From Bacteroidota bacterium (GTDB taxonomy: Bacteria > Bacteroidota > Bacteroidia > UKL13-3): a stretch of 58,897 nucleotides of DNA. The stretch spans positions 1-58,897 of the forward strand of contig CANGPW010000005.1 of NCBI GenBank assembly GCA_947456185.1, given 5' to 3'. Both the position numbers and the translations under genes were made by a program. A model generated the notes under the pieces. The model worked only from the letters and a program-made list of their open reading frames with translations, ran no database searches and was not told the DNA's origin. This document shows, in pieces, positions 16,327 through 41,202 of the stretch. How positions within the stretch are numbered: position 1 is the stretch's first letter; the number at the start of each line of letters is the position of its first letter.

Positions 16327-16342
16327 TGTAACAATTGTTGCA
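16327..16342. promoter_or_regulatory. CRP/FNR-like box A (TGTAACAATTGTTGCA)
   Basis: Near-palindrome, 37 bp upstream (start to start) of TAATTTTG at 16364. Confidence 0.6.
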
Positions 16343-16363
16343 AAGCATCAATAATAGAAGGCT

Positions 16364-16371
16364 TAATTTTG
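16364..16371 (+). promoter_or_regulatory. Bacteroidota -7 element TAATTTTG
   Basis: Matches TAnnTTTG; ATG of the downstream gene 25 bp further. Confidence 0.55.
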
Positions 16372-16395
16372 TAACATAAAAAATATACAAAACAA

Positions 16396-18093
16396 ATGAA
16401 ATACATAGTTATAGGAGCAGTTGCGGGTGGTGCTAGCACAGCCGCAAGATTACGAAGATTAGACGAACACGCGGAGATTGTGATTTTTGAAAAAGGGGAA
16501 TATATTTCTTACGCTAATTGTGGTTTGCCCTATTATATAGGCAATGTAATAAAGGACAGAAATGCATTGTTTGTACAAACAGCAGCTTCATTTAACCAAC
16601 GATTCAATATTGATGTAAGAACTTTAACTGAAGTATTAGCTATCAATGCTGATACCAAAACTGTTACAGCATTTAACCAAACTACTGGTAAAACTTACAA
16701 TGAAACATACGACAAGTTAGTATTATCGCCTGGTGCAGAACCAATTCGTCCGCCTTTACCCGGTGTAACAAACGAAGGGATTTTTACGCTTAGAAACTTA
16801 GCCGATACTGATTATATTAAGGCTTTTGTAAATCAAAAACAGGTAAAAAAAGCAGTGATTATTGGTGCTGGATTTATTGGATTAGAAATGGCAGAAAATC
16901 TGCATGACTTAGGTTTAGAAGTTACTATTATAGAAATGGGAAACCAAATATTAGCACCTTTAGATTTCCCAATTGCTGCCATTGTTCAGCAACATATAAG
17001 GGAAAAAGGGGTGAATTTATTATTAAGTTCGGCAGTTACTGGTTTTGAAAAACATAACAATCAGCTAAAGGTATTATTGAAATCGGGAGAAGCCCTAGAT
17101 GCCGATGTGGTCATCATGTCAATAGGTGTTAAGCCCGATACGCGTTTGGCTGTTCAAGCAGGAATAAGTTTGGGAGCCGCAAAAGGAATTTGGGTAAATG
17201 AGTTTTTGCAAACTTCCAATCCTGATATATATGCCGTGGGCGATGCAATAGAATTTACAAATCCTATTACCAACCAATCGATGAATACTTATTTGGCTGG
17301 CCCTGCTAATAAACAAGGGCGTATTTGTGCGGATAATATAGTGCTTGGGAACAAAAACAGATATAATGGCGCTATCAATACGGCCATTGTAAAAGTGTTT
17401 GACATGACGGTAGCTACTGCCGGAACGGCATCCAAACATTTAACCAATGCTAATATTGAACACATCGTTTCTACCACGCATAATGGTTCACATGCTGGCT
17501 ACTATCCTGGTGCTAAACAAATGAGTATTCAAATAGCATTTTCACCTATCGATGGTCAATTATTAAGTGCGCAAATAGCTGGATTTGAAGGTGTGGATAA
17601 ACGCATTGACATACTGTCATCGATAATAAAAAGAAAGAGTACTATTCATGAATTAACGGAGTTTGAACATGCTTATGCGCCTCCATTTTCATCGGCAAAG
17701 GATCCTGTAAATATTGCAGCGTTTGTGGCAGAAAACATATTGCTTAAAAAGCATAAAATATATTATTGGAACAATTTAGAAAGCGTTACTGAAACCGATA
17801 TTTTGCTAGATGTAAGAACGCTTTCAGAGTTTGAAGCCGGCCACATTCCAAATGCTTTGAATATTCCCCTAGATTCTATAAGGGAAAGGATAAATGAGTT
17901 GGATAAAAACCAAAAGATTTATATTTATTGCCTTGGCGGACAAAGAGGATATTTGGCGCAGCAAATATTAAAACAACATGGGTTTAACACCGAAAATTTA
18001 TCGGGTGGATACCAACTTTGGAAAAATTGTACCAATGAAATTGCTGAAAGCAATAATTTAGCAATGAAAACAAATCAAATGGCTATTATATAA
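16396..18093 (+). CDS. CoA-disulfide-reductase-like FAD oxidoreductase with C-terminal rhodanese domain
   Basis: IVIGAVAGGASTAARLRR, ISYANCGLPYYIG, and rhodanese IYIYCLGGQRGY. Confidence 0.9.
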   Translation: MKYIVIGAVAGGASTAARLRRLDEHAEIVIFEKGEYISYANCGLPYYIGNVIKDRNALFVQTAASFNQRFNIDVRTLTEVLAINADTKTVTAFNQTTGKTYNETYDKLVLSPGAEPIRPPLPGVTNEGIFTLRNLADTDYIKAFVNQKQVKKAVIIGAGFIGLEMAENLHDLGLEVTIIEMGNQILAPLDFPIAAIVQQHIREKGVNLLLSSAVTGFEKHNNQLKVLLKSGEALDADVVIMSIGVKPDTRLAVQAGISLGAAKGIWVNEFLQTSNPDIYAVGDAIEFTNPITNQSMNTYLAGPANKQGRICADNIVLGNKNRYNGAINTAIVKVFDMTVATAGTASKHLTNANIEHIVSTTHNGSHAGYYPGAKQMSIQIAFSPIDGQLLSAQIAGFEGVDKRIDILSSIIKRKSTIHELTEFEHAYAPPFSSAKDPVNIAAFVAENILLKKHKIYYWNNLESVTETDILLDVRTLSEFEAGHIPNALNIPLDSIRERINELDKNQKIYIYCLGGQRGYLAQQILKQHGFNTENLSGGYQLWKNCTNEIAESNNLAMKTNQMAII

Positions 18094-18103
18094 TAGATAA
18101 TTA

Positions 18104-18119
18104 TGTAACAAATGTGACA
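18104..18119. promoter_or_regulatory. CRP/FNR-like box B (TGTAACAAATGTGACA)
   Basis: Imperfect palindrome, 37 bp upstream of TACCATTG at 18141. Confidence 0.65.
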
Positions 18120-18184
18120 TAATTATTATTTAAAATAGCATACCATTGTATAGTAAAAAATATTCACTTAAAAAAAATAAAAAA

Positions 18185-18391
18185 ATGAAAGCAAACATGG
18201 GAACCGCTGACAAAGTAGTAAGAATACTTGCAGCCATTTTAATTGGAGTTCTTTATTTTATGGGACAAATTACAGGAACTGTAGCTATTATTTTAATGGC
18301 TGTAGCAGTCATTTTTATTGCTACAAGTTTTATGAGTTTTTGCCCTTTGTACTTGCCATTTGGCATTTCTACCAAGAAAAAAGAAAGCTAA
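18185..18391 (+). CDS. DUF2892 (YgaP-like) membrane protein
   Basis: MKANMGTADKVVRILAAILIG; ATG at 18185 preferred over the track start. Confidence 0.82.
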   Translation: MKANMGTADKVVRILAAILIGVLYFMGQITGTVAIILMAVAVIFIATSFMSFCPLYLPFGISTKKKES

Positions 18392-18558
18392 GAATTTATC
18401 ATTTTTAAAACCAATCTTATTTTATAACAGCTTTACATAAATTGTTGAGCTGTTATATTTTTTTAAATCTAAATCAATCATTTTAAATGAAGGTAAATAC
18501 CACCATGGAAATGTAGAAGTGATAAGATATGTTGGCATAAAATAAATTTATTTCATTA

Positions 18559-18574
18559 TGTAACAAAAGTAACC
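18559..18574. promoter_or_regulatory. CRP/FNR-like box C (TGTAACAAAAGTAACC)
   Basis: 37 bp upstream of TACATTTG at 18596. Confidence 0.55.
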
Positions 18575-18595
18575 AAGCAATGAAAAGCTTATTGC

Positions 18596-18603
18596 TACAT
18601 TTG
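18596..18603 (+). promoter_or_regulatory. Bacteroidota -7 element TACATTTG
   Basis: Matches TAnnTTTG. Confidence 0.6.
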
Positions 18604-18619
18604 TATTAACAATAAAAAC

Positions 18620-18823
18620 ATGAATACTTTAAACAAATATAAATTCCATATTTTAGGAATAATAATTGGCGCAATAGCTGGTTATGCATATTATTATTTT
18701 GTAGGGTGTGCCAGCGGAACTTGTGCCATTACCTCAAAGCCTTTAAATAGTACTTTATATGGCGCAGTAATGGGCGGATTATTGGCTGATTTATTTAAAA
18801 AAGAAAAAACAAAAAGTATTTAA
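18620..18823 (+). CDS. DUF6132-like small membrane protein
   Basis: Two TM segments with VGCASGTCAIT loop and YGAVMGGLLAD. Confidence 0.65.
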   Translation: MNTLNKYKFHILGIIIGAIAGYAYYYFVGCASGTCAITSKPLNSTLYGAVMGGLLADLFKKEKTKSI

Positions 18824-18836
18824 AAAAATTAAGATC

Positions 18837-19112
18837 ATGAAAACTGAAGAAATCATTATTGCCAATCTTAAATGTAATGGTTGCGCAACTACCATTAAAA
18901 GAGAATTATTAGGAATAAACGGGGTAAAAACGGTAGCGGTTGACATAGACAAAGATGCCATAGACTTAACCTACGATGATAATGTAGAAAGAAGTACAAT
19001 TATTAGTAAGCTTCTTTCACTTGGTTACCCTGAGGCAACGGAAAAAAACGGATTGCTTTTGCAATTAAAAAGCTACACCAGTTGTATGATTGGTAAAGTA
19101 CATAATTTATAA
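18837..19112 (+). CDS. Heavy-metal-associated (HMA) domain protein
   Basis: NLKCNGCATTIKREL CxxC motif. Confidence 0.85.
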   Translation: MKTEEIIIANLKCNGCATTIKRELLGINGVKTVAVDIDKDAIDLTYDDNVERSTIISKLLSLGYPEATEKNGLLLQLKSYTSCMIGKVHNL

Positions 19113-19118
19113 ACTAAA

Positions 19119-19403
19119 ATGGATATAGAAAATTTAATTAAAGAAAACAAAGGAACAGTAGTTGACGTTAGAACACCATCGGAGTTTATGGGTGGAAATG
19201 TGGCTGGCTCTATAAACATTCCGTTAAACGAAGTAGTAGCAAGAATGGATGAATTAAAAAGCTTAAAATTGCCTCTTATACTTTGCTGTGCATCGGGAGG
19301 AAGAAGCGGGCAAGCCCACCACTACTTATCAAACCAAGGAATAGATTGTGTAAACGGTGGTTCATGGTTAAATGTAAATTATTATCAAAATCAAACAGCT
19401 TAA
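19119..19403 (+). CDS. Rhodanese-like sulfurtransferase
   Basis: VVDVRTPSEFMGGNVAGSINIP; active-site loop CCASGGRS. Confidence 0.9.
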   Translation: MDIENLIKENKGTVVDVRTPSEFMGGNVAGSINIPLNEVVARMDELKSLKLPLILCCASGGRSGQAHHYLSNQGIDCVNGGSWLNVNYYQNQTA

Positions 19404-19412
19404 TAAACAAAA

Positions 19413-19730
19413 ATGATTAACACAATTAAACAATTATTTGGCTTAGGTCCAAAGGTAGATTACGCAGCATTAGTAAAACAGGGCGCTATTATTTTAGACG
19501 TTCGTAGTAAAGGCGAATATGCAGGCGGACATATAAAAGGATCGTTAAATATTTCGGTTGACACCTTAAGTAATAACTTGAGTAAATTAAAAGATAAAAA
19601 CAAGCCAATTATTACTTGTTGTGCATCGGGCATGAGAAGTTCATCGGCCAAAGGTATTTTAAAATCAAACGGATATACCGATGTTCATAATGGTGGTGCG
19701 TGGAGTAGTTTACAATATAAAATTAAATAA
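19413..19730 (+). CDS. Rhodanese-like sulfurtransferase
   Basis: ILDVRSKGEYAGGHIKGSLNIS; loop CCASGMRS. Confidence 0.9.
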   Translation: MINTIKQLFGLGPKVDYAALVKQGAIILDVRSKGEYAGGHIKGSLNISVDTLSNNLSKLKDKNKPIITCCASGMRSSSAKGILKSNGYTDVHNGGAWSSLQYKIK

Positions 19731-19978
19731 TGAACATACAAACACTTTTAATAGGTTGGAATTTTATGCGCGGATTGCGTTTAGTATTAGGAGTTATATT
19801 CCTCATGCAAGCTATTGAAATGCGAGATAATATTACTGGCTTAATTGCAACATTCTTTTTGTTTCAAGCAGCAACAAATACCGGTTGCTGTGGGTCAAAT
19901 GGATGTGCTGTTCCAATCAATAAAACTAAGGTAGACGATATGCAAGACGTAACATTTGAAGAAGTAAAATCAAAATAA
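19730..19978 (+). CDS. Small DUF2892-like membrane protein with CCGSNGC motif
   Basis: Two hydrophobic segments; start overlaps upstream stop by one base (TAATG). Confidence 0.6.
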
Positions 19979-19980
19979 AT

Positions 19981-20277
19981 ATGGCAACATTTTCAGAAAT
20001 TATTAAAAGTGACAAGCCTACATTAGTCGATTTTTTTGCGGAATGGTGTGGACCTTGTAAAACAATGAAACCAATTTTGGAAGATTTAAAATCGAAAATT
20101 GGTGCGGAAGCAACTATTTTAAAAATAGATGTAGATAAAAATCAACAAGTAGCAAATACATTCCAAATACAAGGTGTGCCAACCCTAATTTTATTTAAAA
20201 ATGGTGAAATTAAATGGCGACAATCTGGTGTGTTTTCAGCCAATAACTTAGCACAAATAATTAAACAAAACTCTTAA
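19981..20277 (+). CDS. trxA: Thioredoxin
   Basis: [16 protein letters not shown]. Confidence 0.93.
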
Positions 20278-37663: not shown

Positions 37664-38770
37664 TTAATTTTTAATACATCGAACTGACAAACCATTATTT
37701 TTATATGTAAAAGTGTTGTTTGATCCAATAGCTGTAGGAGTAATAGAAAAATTACCATCATTGGTATGATAATATCCACTACCACCAGCTATTCCAGTTA
37801 AATTTCCTGTATTAACTCTGCGACCAGCTACTGGCAACTTAGTTACAGCATTAGACCAAGAAGTAGCATTAGTACCTACATTATAGGTATTACTAAACAT
37901 ATTATTAACTTCAGCAACTGAAGGAAGTCTGTAACCCGAAGGACAAGGATTATTAATTCCTGTAATGCCTTGCCAACGAGTTTCGGGGCTTGGTGCAGTA
38001 GTCATCCATGAATCATTATTAGTACCAGCATTAATAAATAATGCGTTTCCAGGACTTGTGCTACTAGATAATGTAGTAGTTACTCCATTTACTGTTGCAC
38101 CACTAAATGATGAAGTCCAATCAACAGAAGCATGACCATCATTGCCTCTACCCCATTGATAGAAACAACCGTAAGCAAAATAATCGTTATAAACTGTAGC
38201 GGCACGGCTAGCGCCTAAGTTTCTGTCCATCCAAGTATAGGTTACCCCATTAAAAGTATGCGTTACATCTTTTACTACTGTAGGACGTGTGCCATCACAA
38301 ATTGCAGTACCACCAAAAGGCGGAGCCATATTGGCTATAGCGCCAGCATTAGTTCTCCATTGTGTTCCATCAAAAATAGATGTTTCTCCTGCACCTGAAT
38401 TACAATTACTGCACCACACAGTTAAACCCGAGGCTGCAGCCGAAGGTTCTAAGGCATTTCTTTGAGTATAAGTAAATGAAGCTAAACCTGAGGCAGCTGC
38501 ACCTGCAGCATTCACCCAAGAAGTACCATTGTAAATTTGAAATTCACCTAAAGTTCCCAAACCACAATTGGTGCAATATACTTGCAGCCCAATAGTGGTA
38601 GTCATTGTGGTTCTTTGATCATAGGTTACCCGAGGCAACAAAAACCCTTTAGTGGCGCTAGTTACATCCAACTTAGCAGAGGCCTCAGGGCTGGAGGTAC
38701 CAATACCAACTTGAGCAAAGCTGATGGTAGTTAGCAATATAATTATTGAAAATAATATTAATTTTTTCAC
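37664..38770 (-). CDS. FISUMP-domain secreted protein
   Basis: TKGFLLPR...CTNC modules plus TWMDRNLGASRAAT...QWGRGNDGHAS...LSVRCIKN. Confidence 0.8.
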   Translation of the reverse strand: MKKLILFSIIILLTTISFAQVGIGTSSPEASAKLDVTSATKGFLLPRVTYDQRTTMTTTIGLQVYCTNCGLGTLGEFQIYNGTSWVNAAGAAASGLASFTYTQRNALEPSAAASGLTVWCSNCNSGAGETSIFDGTQWRTNAGAIANMAPPFGGTAICDGTRPTVVKDVTHTFNGVTYTWMDRNLGASRAATVYNDYFAYGCFYQWGRGNDGHASVDWTSSFSGATVNGVTTTLSSSTSPGNALFINAGTNNDSWMTTAPSPETRWQGITGINNPCPSGYRLPSVAEVNNMFSNTYNVGTNATSWSNAVTKLPVAGRRVNTGNLTGIAGGSGYYHTNDGNFSITPTAIGSNNTFTYKNNGLSVRCIKN

Positions 38771-40071: not shown

Positions 40072-41202
40072 TTAATTTTTGATACATCGAACCGATAAAG
40101 AAATATTTTTATAAATATAACTGCTCGAACCAGCACTATTAGAAGCAGTAGAAAAATTCCCACTAATAGTGTGATAAATTCCCATATTATTCATATTTAA
40201 AAGAGAACCTCCATTAAGTCTATTACCAGCTACAGGCAATTTTGTTGTAGCATTAGACCAAGAAGTAGCATTTGTACCAACATTATAGATATTATTTATC
40301 ATAGCATTAAATTCTGCAGATGTCGGAATTCTATAACCCGCAGGACAAGGATTATTTAAAGCATTTACACCACCCTGCCAACGTGTTTCGGGGTTCGGTG
40401 CAGTAGTCATCCAGGATACACTGCCATCAGTACCTGCATTAATATATAATGCGTTTCCAGGACTTGTAGTACTAGACAATATTGTAGTTACTCCATTTGC
40501 TGCTACACCACTACTTGATGAAGTCCAATTAATAGAAGCATGACCATCATTGCCTCTACCCCATTGATATGAACAACCGTAAGCAAGATAATCGTTATAT
40601 ACTGAAGCGGCACGGCTAGCGCCTAAGTTTCTGTCCATCCAAGTATAGGTTACCCCATTATAAGTATGCGTTACATCTTTTACTACTGTAGGACGTGTGC
40701 CATCACAAATTGCAGTTCCACCAAAAGGCGGAGCCATATTGGCTAAAGCGCCAGCAGTAGTTCTCCATTGTGTCCCATCAAAAACAGATGTTTCTCCTGC
40801 ACCTGAATTACAATCACTGCACCACACAGATAAACCTGAGGCAGCAGCTGAAGGTTCCAAGGCATTTCTTTGGGTATAAGTTAATGATGCTAAACCAGAG
40901 GCAGCTGCACCTGCAGCATTCACCCAAGAAGTGCCATTGTAAATTTGCAATTCACCTAAAGTTCCCAAACCACAATTGGTGCAATATACTTGCAGCCCAG
41001 TAGTGGTAGTCATTGTGATTCTTTGATCATAGGTTACCCGAGGCAACAAAAACCCTTTGGTAGCACTAGTTACATCTAACTTAGCAGAGGCCTCAGGACT
41101 CGAAGTTCCAATACCCACTTGTGCATTTACTTTGAAAAACATCAAAAGAGAAAGCCCTAAGCTGAGTATGGTTGTGCGTATAATATTAAAATGGATTTTC
41201 AT
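40072..41202 (-). CDS. FISUMP-domain secreted protein (mosaic of the two neighbouring paralogs)
   Basis: N-terminal part near-identical to 37664-38770; C-terminal part closest to 38803-40026. Confidence 0.8.
   Translation of the reverse strand: MKIHFNIIRTTILSLGLSLLMFFKVNAQVGIGTSSPEASAKLDVTSATKGFLLPRVTYDQRITMTTTTGLQVYCTNCGLGTLGELQIYNGTSWVNAAGAAASGLASLTYTQRNALEPSAAASGLSVWCSDCNSGAGETSVFDGTQWRTTAGALANMAPPFGGTAICDGTRPTVVKDVTHTYNGVTYTWMDRNLGASRAASVYNDYLAYGCSYQWGRGNDGHASINWTSSSSGVAANGVTTILSSTTSPGNALYINAGTDGSVSWMTTAPNPETRWQGGVNALNNPCPAGYRIPTSAEFNAMINNIYNVGTNATSWSNATTKLPVAGNRLNGGSLLNMNNMGIYHTISGNFSTASNSAGSSSYIYKNISLSVRCIKN

Follow-up and report, generated by a model that had tools for sequence, protein, structure and literature searches.

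Three promoters of shared architecture as a candidate sulfane-sulfur detoxification regulon of a Crp/Fnr-family activator in Bacteroidota

The DNA analysed here (the window) is a stretch of 58,897 nt, contig CANGPW010000005.1 of assembly GCA_947456185.1, from a Bacteroidota bacterium of lineage UKL13-3 whose genome we refer to as the host genome (G000). It contains three promoters, each with a palindromic regulator box and a -7-like element, which precede a gene for a CoA-disulfide reductase-like flavoenzyme with a rhodanese domain (CoADR-rhodanese), the gene of a YgaP-like (DUF2892) membrane protein and a DUF6132-HMA-rhodanese-thioredoxin operon (Table 1). The original prediction, made from the letters alone, had assigned the promoters to these genes, and Pfam and sequence assignments agree. 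All six elements are found where it had placed them, and each -7-like element begins exactly 37 bp after its box, counted from start to start. The box that it gave, TGTAAC-N4-GTNNCA, describes real sites, but the class-wide consensus is refined to TGTAAC-N4-GTNRC, so that GTTGCA in the first site and GTAACC in the third are ordinary variants.

Table 1 Promoter elements and genes of the three transcription units in the window
Feature	Position	Strand	Remarks
Regulator box 1, TGTAACAATTGTTGCA, promoter of CoADR-rhodanese gene	16327..16342	+	conserved in G001, G002, G003, G005
-7 element TAATTTTG, 37 bp from the start of box 1	16364..16371	+	identical in four sister genomes
CoA-disulfide reductase-like flavoenzyme + rhodanese domain, 565 aa	16396..18093	+	Pfam Pyr_redox_2, Rhodanese; scores under the cut-off for NCBIfam CoADR models
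Regulator box 2, TGTAACAAATGTGACA, promoter of YgaP-like/DUF2892 gene	18104..18119	+	conserved in sister genomes
Variant -7 element TACCATTG, 37 bp from the start of box 2	18141..18148	+	TACCATTG or TAACATTG in sister genomes
YgaP-like transmembrane protein (DUF2892), 68 aa	18185..18391	+	Pfam PF11127, 6e-21
Regulator box 3, TGTAACAAAAGTAACC, promoter of DUF6132 operon	18559..18574	+	conserved in sister genomes
-7 element TACATTTG, 37 bp from the start of box 3	18596..18603	+	conserved in sister genomes
DUF6132 small membrane protein	18620..18823	+	Pfam PF19628
HMA-domain protein	18837..19112	+	Pfam PF00403
Single-domain rhodanese 1	19119..19403	+	Pfam PF00581
Single-domain rhodanese 2	19413..19730	+	Pfam PF00581
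Small membrane protein, 82 aa, recurs in operon	19730..19978	+	no Pfam family
Thioredoxin	19981..20277	+	Pfam PF00085
Rhodanese-thioredoxin fusion, 242 aa	20286..21014	+	Pfam Rhodanese, Thioredoxin; lipoprotein-like signal inferred from sequence

The specificity of these elements was assessed by pattern searches of the host genome. Searched as TGTAACN4GTNNC, the box alone shows no genome-wide enrichment: it matches 27 times and the reversed pattern, used as control, 26 times; at this background frequency it proves little by itself. At this rate a span of 2.28 kb should hold 0.02 boxes, which makes a group of three unlikely (P ~1.5e-6), and of the box matches beyond the window region, those inspected in context have no -7 element at +37. 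A composite pattern built from the three window sites, TGTAACN4GTNACN22TAnnTTTG, has 55 matches at up to 3 mismatches, and those with 0-1 mismatch are found only at the three sites themselves. Thus, random occurrence across the genome describes the box alone and not the composite, which is specific to the three promoters. Since the composite was derived from these same sites, independent evidence was sought in relatives.

Among the matches with 2 mismatches, a possible fourth site before a gene that reads from its sequence as DsbD-like (G000:C9:22703) was rejected, as it is not conserved in the regulator-bearing genomes G003, G004 and G007; a similar sequence is kept in G008, which has no regulator. 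The match on C31 has no gene start downstream on its strand, and the matches on C39 and C110 are internal to open reading frames.

Four sister genomes (G001, G002, G003 and G005), each with the CoADR-rhodanese gene and the operon, retain the three boxes and their three -7 elements, each pair at the exact 37 bp spacing. The variant TACCATTG at 18141 is conserved as well, with TAACATTG in its place in two of the four. Between the host and G003, whose CoADR proteins are 77% identical, 45 of 45 core positions are the same, compared with 130 of 330 in the surrounding DNA; the G003 boxes were located by the box pattern, so their identity is partly conditional, whilst the -7 elements are not in that pattern. 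Within the genus, G008 (a genome only 65% complete) and G009 have neither regulator nor operon, and G006, also lacking the regulator, retains a reduced operon without any box. The rhodanese 2 orthologue is missing in the same-genus genomes that have no regulator, G006 excepted.

There are five Crp/Fnr genes in the host genome and, as predicted, none in the window. The candidate regulator, a member of what we call subfamily A, is G000:C43:22943-23488; lying on another contig, it would act in trans. Linkage of such a gene to rhodanese or persulfide dioxygenase loci, which the original prediction had suggested looking for, is found in relatives, where orthologues 70-89% identical to the candidate immediately precede the same sulfur operon, separated from it by box and promoter. 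The regulator is beside the operon in G003 and on another contig than the operon in G000, G001, G002 and G005; in G001 its neighbour genes are unrelated. By its domains the candidate belongs to the Crp/Fnr superfamily, with a predicted cyclic-nucleotide-binding domain and a Crp-type helix-turn-helix: the G001 orthologue (99% identical) scores 46.6 bits for PF00027 (cut-off 27.5) and 39.1 bits for PF13545 (cut-off 27). That another of the five Crp/Fnr proteins controls the boxes is conceivable, given their number and the lack of linkage between candidate and operon in the host, but we consider it very unlikely. The recognition helix of the candidate, GTARVVVSRLL, aligns with GSTRVTVTRLL of NtcA, and its R180-V181-S184-R185 combination is found in the candidate only, the other four paralogues differing at those positions; furthermore, it is the orthologues of the candidate that directly precede the operon in many relatives, and composite matches track its presence. 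A stricter reading, in which the box would be set by the R-V helix alone, was abandoned, as some members with R-E also have the box. Another Crp/Fnr-like gene of the host, L032 (G000:C6:7689-7949), lies just upstream of genes whose translations read as rhodopsin-like and lycopene-cyclase-like.

A survey of 295 Bacteroidia genomes, with box position 14 left free, gave 192 composite matches in 110 genomes against 15 for the reversed composite. Among genomes with a subfamily-A regulator 33 of 43 have the composite, as do 62 of 131 with a regulator of a second group, subfamily B, and 15 of 121 with neither; Fisher tests of co-occurrence give P ~1e-14 for A and ~1e-9 for B, with shared ancestry ignored. 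Subfamily B is ~40% identical and has the same box and target genes, and most of its members add one or two cysteines 6-7 residues past Cys75, a residue discussed below. Position 14 proved to be a purine in 98% of 130 sites (72% A, 26% G).

The most direct view of the spacing comes from 80 subfamily-A loci chosen by similarity to the regulator protein alone and not by DNA pattern. These contain 103 boxes, 89 of which have ANNTTTG at the identical offset, the next commonest offset occurring 4 times. For the first 20 loci, a Markov control gave 0.88 boxes compared with the 23 observed, and none of the control boxes had the fixed offset. For 51 of the 80 loci the regulator gene ends within the box, its stop codon being the TAA of TGTAAC, ahead of the next gene, a compact arrangement in which the last codons of the regulator form part of the next promoter. 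Conversely, loci found by the DNA pattern alone have sulfur-regulon genes within 1.5 kb in 19 of 30 cases, compared with 1 of 51 background loci. The suggestion that the boxes are chance palindromes in AT-rich intergenic DNA, which the background frequency of the box in the host genome would favour, is contradicted by every comparative test, from conservation in the sisters and the match counts to the offset and the neighbouring genes, and can practically be dismissed.

The fixed offset also bears on the direction of control. Were the boxes operators of a repressor of the same family, a bound protein would likewise block polymerase, since the box extends to the -33 region. Repressors, however, usually tolerate variable positions, which a polymerase contact at -41.5 does not, and the geometry is the same as in the activating class II promoter of NtcA. 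Such exact spacing speaks for polymerase contact and hence for activation, and we regard repression as improbable.

The genes adjoining subfamily-A boxes encode persulfide dioxygenase-rhodanese fusions, rhodaneses, thioredoxins, TauE, the YgaP-like membrane protein and DUF6132. Those that follow the same promoters in relatives include metallo-beta-lactamase-rhodanese fusions of the persulfide dioxygenase kind, TauE/SafE, OsmC and thiopurine-methyltransferase-like genes. Persulfide dioxygenase, rhodanese and TauE targets come together under one regulator in the relatives, the window itself having only rhodaneses, thioredoxins and the CoADR-rhodanese. This set of targets is that of sulfide/persulfide detoxification, as in the CstR and BigR systems. 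The comparative sequence data thus indicate that the sulfur regulon is Bacteroidota-wide and that the window holds one local copy of it; co-occurrence, linkage and gene content all support the predicted sulfur/thiol regulon under a trans-acting class II activator of the Crp/Fnr family.

As to the signal, Cys75 is invariant in 106 of 106 subfamily-A and 18 of 18 subfamily-B sequences and absent from the four host paralogues. It lies in the effector-domain fold, where alignment with CRP puts the beginning of the phosphate-binding cassette, and it alone is invariant among the 1-4 cysteines of the orthologues. The N-terminal cysteine cluster of the FNR type is absent from the orthologues, the closest full-length one having two cysteines, neither of them N-terminal. 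The cAMP contacts of Escherichia coli CRP, E72, R82 and S83, are not conserved, being F, K and V in a phmmer alignment in which a nearby gap leaves some uncertainty. With Cys75 invariant, and the FNR cluster and CRP contacts missing, we propose thiol-based persulfide sensing. The same regulon and regulator might instead respond to a small molecule, the oxygen or redox state or nitric oxide, read in the cyclic-nucleotide-fold pocket, the response of the sulfur genes being secondary. Crp/Fnr proteins do commonly bind small molecules or sense redox, and 2-oxoglutarate is the signal for NtcA (PMC3898017), which among characterised relatives comes closest in box and geometry. On the other hand, the recurrent targets are almost all sulfane-sulfur enzymes, the residues by which FNR and CRP read their signals are those just described as lacking, and Cys75 is the one invariant residue fit for redox or sulfur chemistry; a signal other than sulfur is therefore the less probable reading, yet the most serious of the alternatives considered here.

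We thus interpret the three promoters, with a probability of roughly 0.82, as a local sulfide/persulfide (sulfane-sulfur) detoxification regulon under the putative class II activator G000:C43:22943-23488. From boxes, spacing, conservation, regulator linkage and co-occurrence, gene content and the invariant cysteine, all read from sequence, we infer binding, start sites, activation over repression, Cys75 sensing and the inducer as follows. A homodimeric activator would bind TGTAAC-N4-GTNRC centred ~41 bp upstream of the inferred start site and would contact polymerase at TAnnTTTG, giving class II activation with the geometry of an NtcA promoter. It would turn on the CoADR-rhodanese enzyme, the YgaP-like membrane protein and the DUF6132-HMA-rhodanese-rhodanese-thioredoxin operon, whose products may reduce excess sulfane sulfur, carry it or dispose of it. 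Cys75 would probably read the signal, through its persulfidation or oxidation. The broader proposal, that a Bacteroidota-wide Crp/Fnr clade senses sulfide-derived persulfides through one invariant cysteine and activates detoxification from NtcA-type class II promoters, has in our judgement an even chance of being correct.

Several observations weigh against this interpretation. The second persulfide dioxygenase-rhodanese-like gene of the host (G000:C89:457-1752) has no box upstream and may be regulated differently. The gene of the host regulator is truncated by the contig end, and 14 of the 103 boxes near subfamily-A genes have no -7 element at the expected offset. The co-occurrence tests take no account of common descent, and B-type regulators share the box, so that the assignment is not unique in genomes carrying both A and B. 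Finally, the regulon is assigned by comparative genomics, which points to sulfide or persulfide as the putative signal indirectly.

The similarity to NtcA is close in the DNA. NtcA promoters have GTAN8TAC at about -41.5 and a -10 box of the form TAN3T, with 22 nt separating the two at glnA and ilvG (PMC3898017); the window box, GTA-N8-TAC followed by 22 nt and TA, is that of a canonical NtcA-activated promoter with class II geometry, and the recognition helices share R-V-x-V-[S/T]-R. The candidate nevertheless scores 42.7 bits where the curated NtcA family cut-off is 244.95, its targets are sulfur rather than nitrogen genes, NtcA has no cysteine at the Cys75 position and the -7 element is the TAnnTTTG of Bacteroidota (PMC7366714). 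With E. coli CRP and FNR the candidate shares the superfamily fold, the helix-turn-helix domains and the class II position, but it is set apart by the missing FNR cysteines and by the cAMP contacts not conserved in the alignment. The half-sites of CRP and FNR are TGTGA and TTGAT (the FNR box being TTGAT-N4-ATCAA), and TGTAAC-N4-GTNRC differs from both. The palindromes had been called CRP/FNR-like, which is right for the family of the regulator and not for the box, which is of the NtcA type, GTA-N8-TAC. CstR, BigR and SqrR are persulfide-responsive regulators of persulfide dioxygenase-rhodanese and related sulfurtransferase genes (PMC9774590, PMC5823870). They resemble the candidate in their sulfur targets and in cysteine-based sensing, the logic proposed here; however, all three are repressors, CstR of the CsoR-like kind and BigR and SqrR from a different family, whereas the candidate is a proposed Crp/Fnr activator. 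The best match to the candidate in the PDB is 3DV8 (1e-18), a protein of the Crp/Fnr family with a cysteine at the Cys75 position, whose function is not stated in the record.

Two further features of the window were observed. Between the DUF2892 and DUF6132 promoters (18392-18558 in the window), G003 has a methyltransferase gene (197 aa), and G001, G002 and G005 have ~540 bp more than the window; the host has thus probably lost the methyltransferase gene. Elsewhere, two near-identical minus-strand stretches 2.4 kb apart (38232-38276 and 40640-40684) suggest a long gene with repeated modules, or else paralogues in tandem.

Neither class II activation by Crp/Fnr proteins nor a regulon for sulfide detoxification is new in kind; their pairing in Bacteroidota was not found described in the literature searched, and that search, which covered few subscription journals and no preprints and included several queries unlikely to match 'Crp/Fnr', returned no Crp/Fnr regulator of sulfide or sulfane sulfur. 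Nor did it return a sulfide-response regulator for Bacteroidota, which are abundant in soil, water and guts. If the proposal is true, the candidate would be a persulfide sensor on a scaffold not reported for such a role in the same literature, and the promoter geometry of NtcA would recur alongside an unusual sigma factor and in an unrelated physiological context. Box, spacing and regulator together make up a regulon that can be tested in cultured subfamily-A carriers such as Pedobacter terrae, Emticicia aquatilis and Fluviicola chungangensis, and that offers a route to the function of DUF6132 and the YgaP-like protein.
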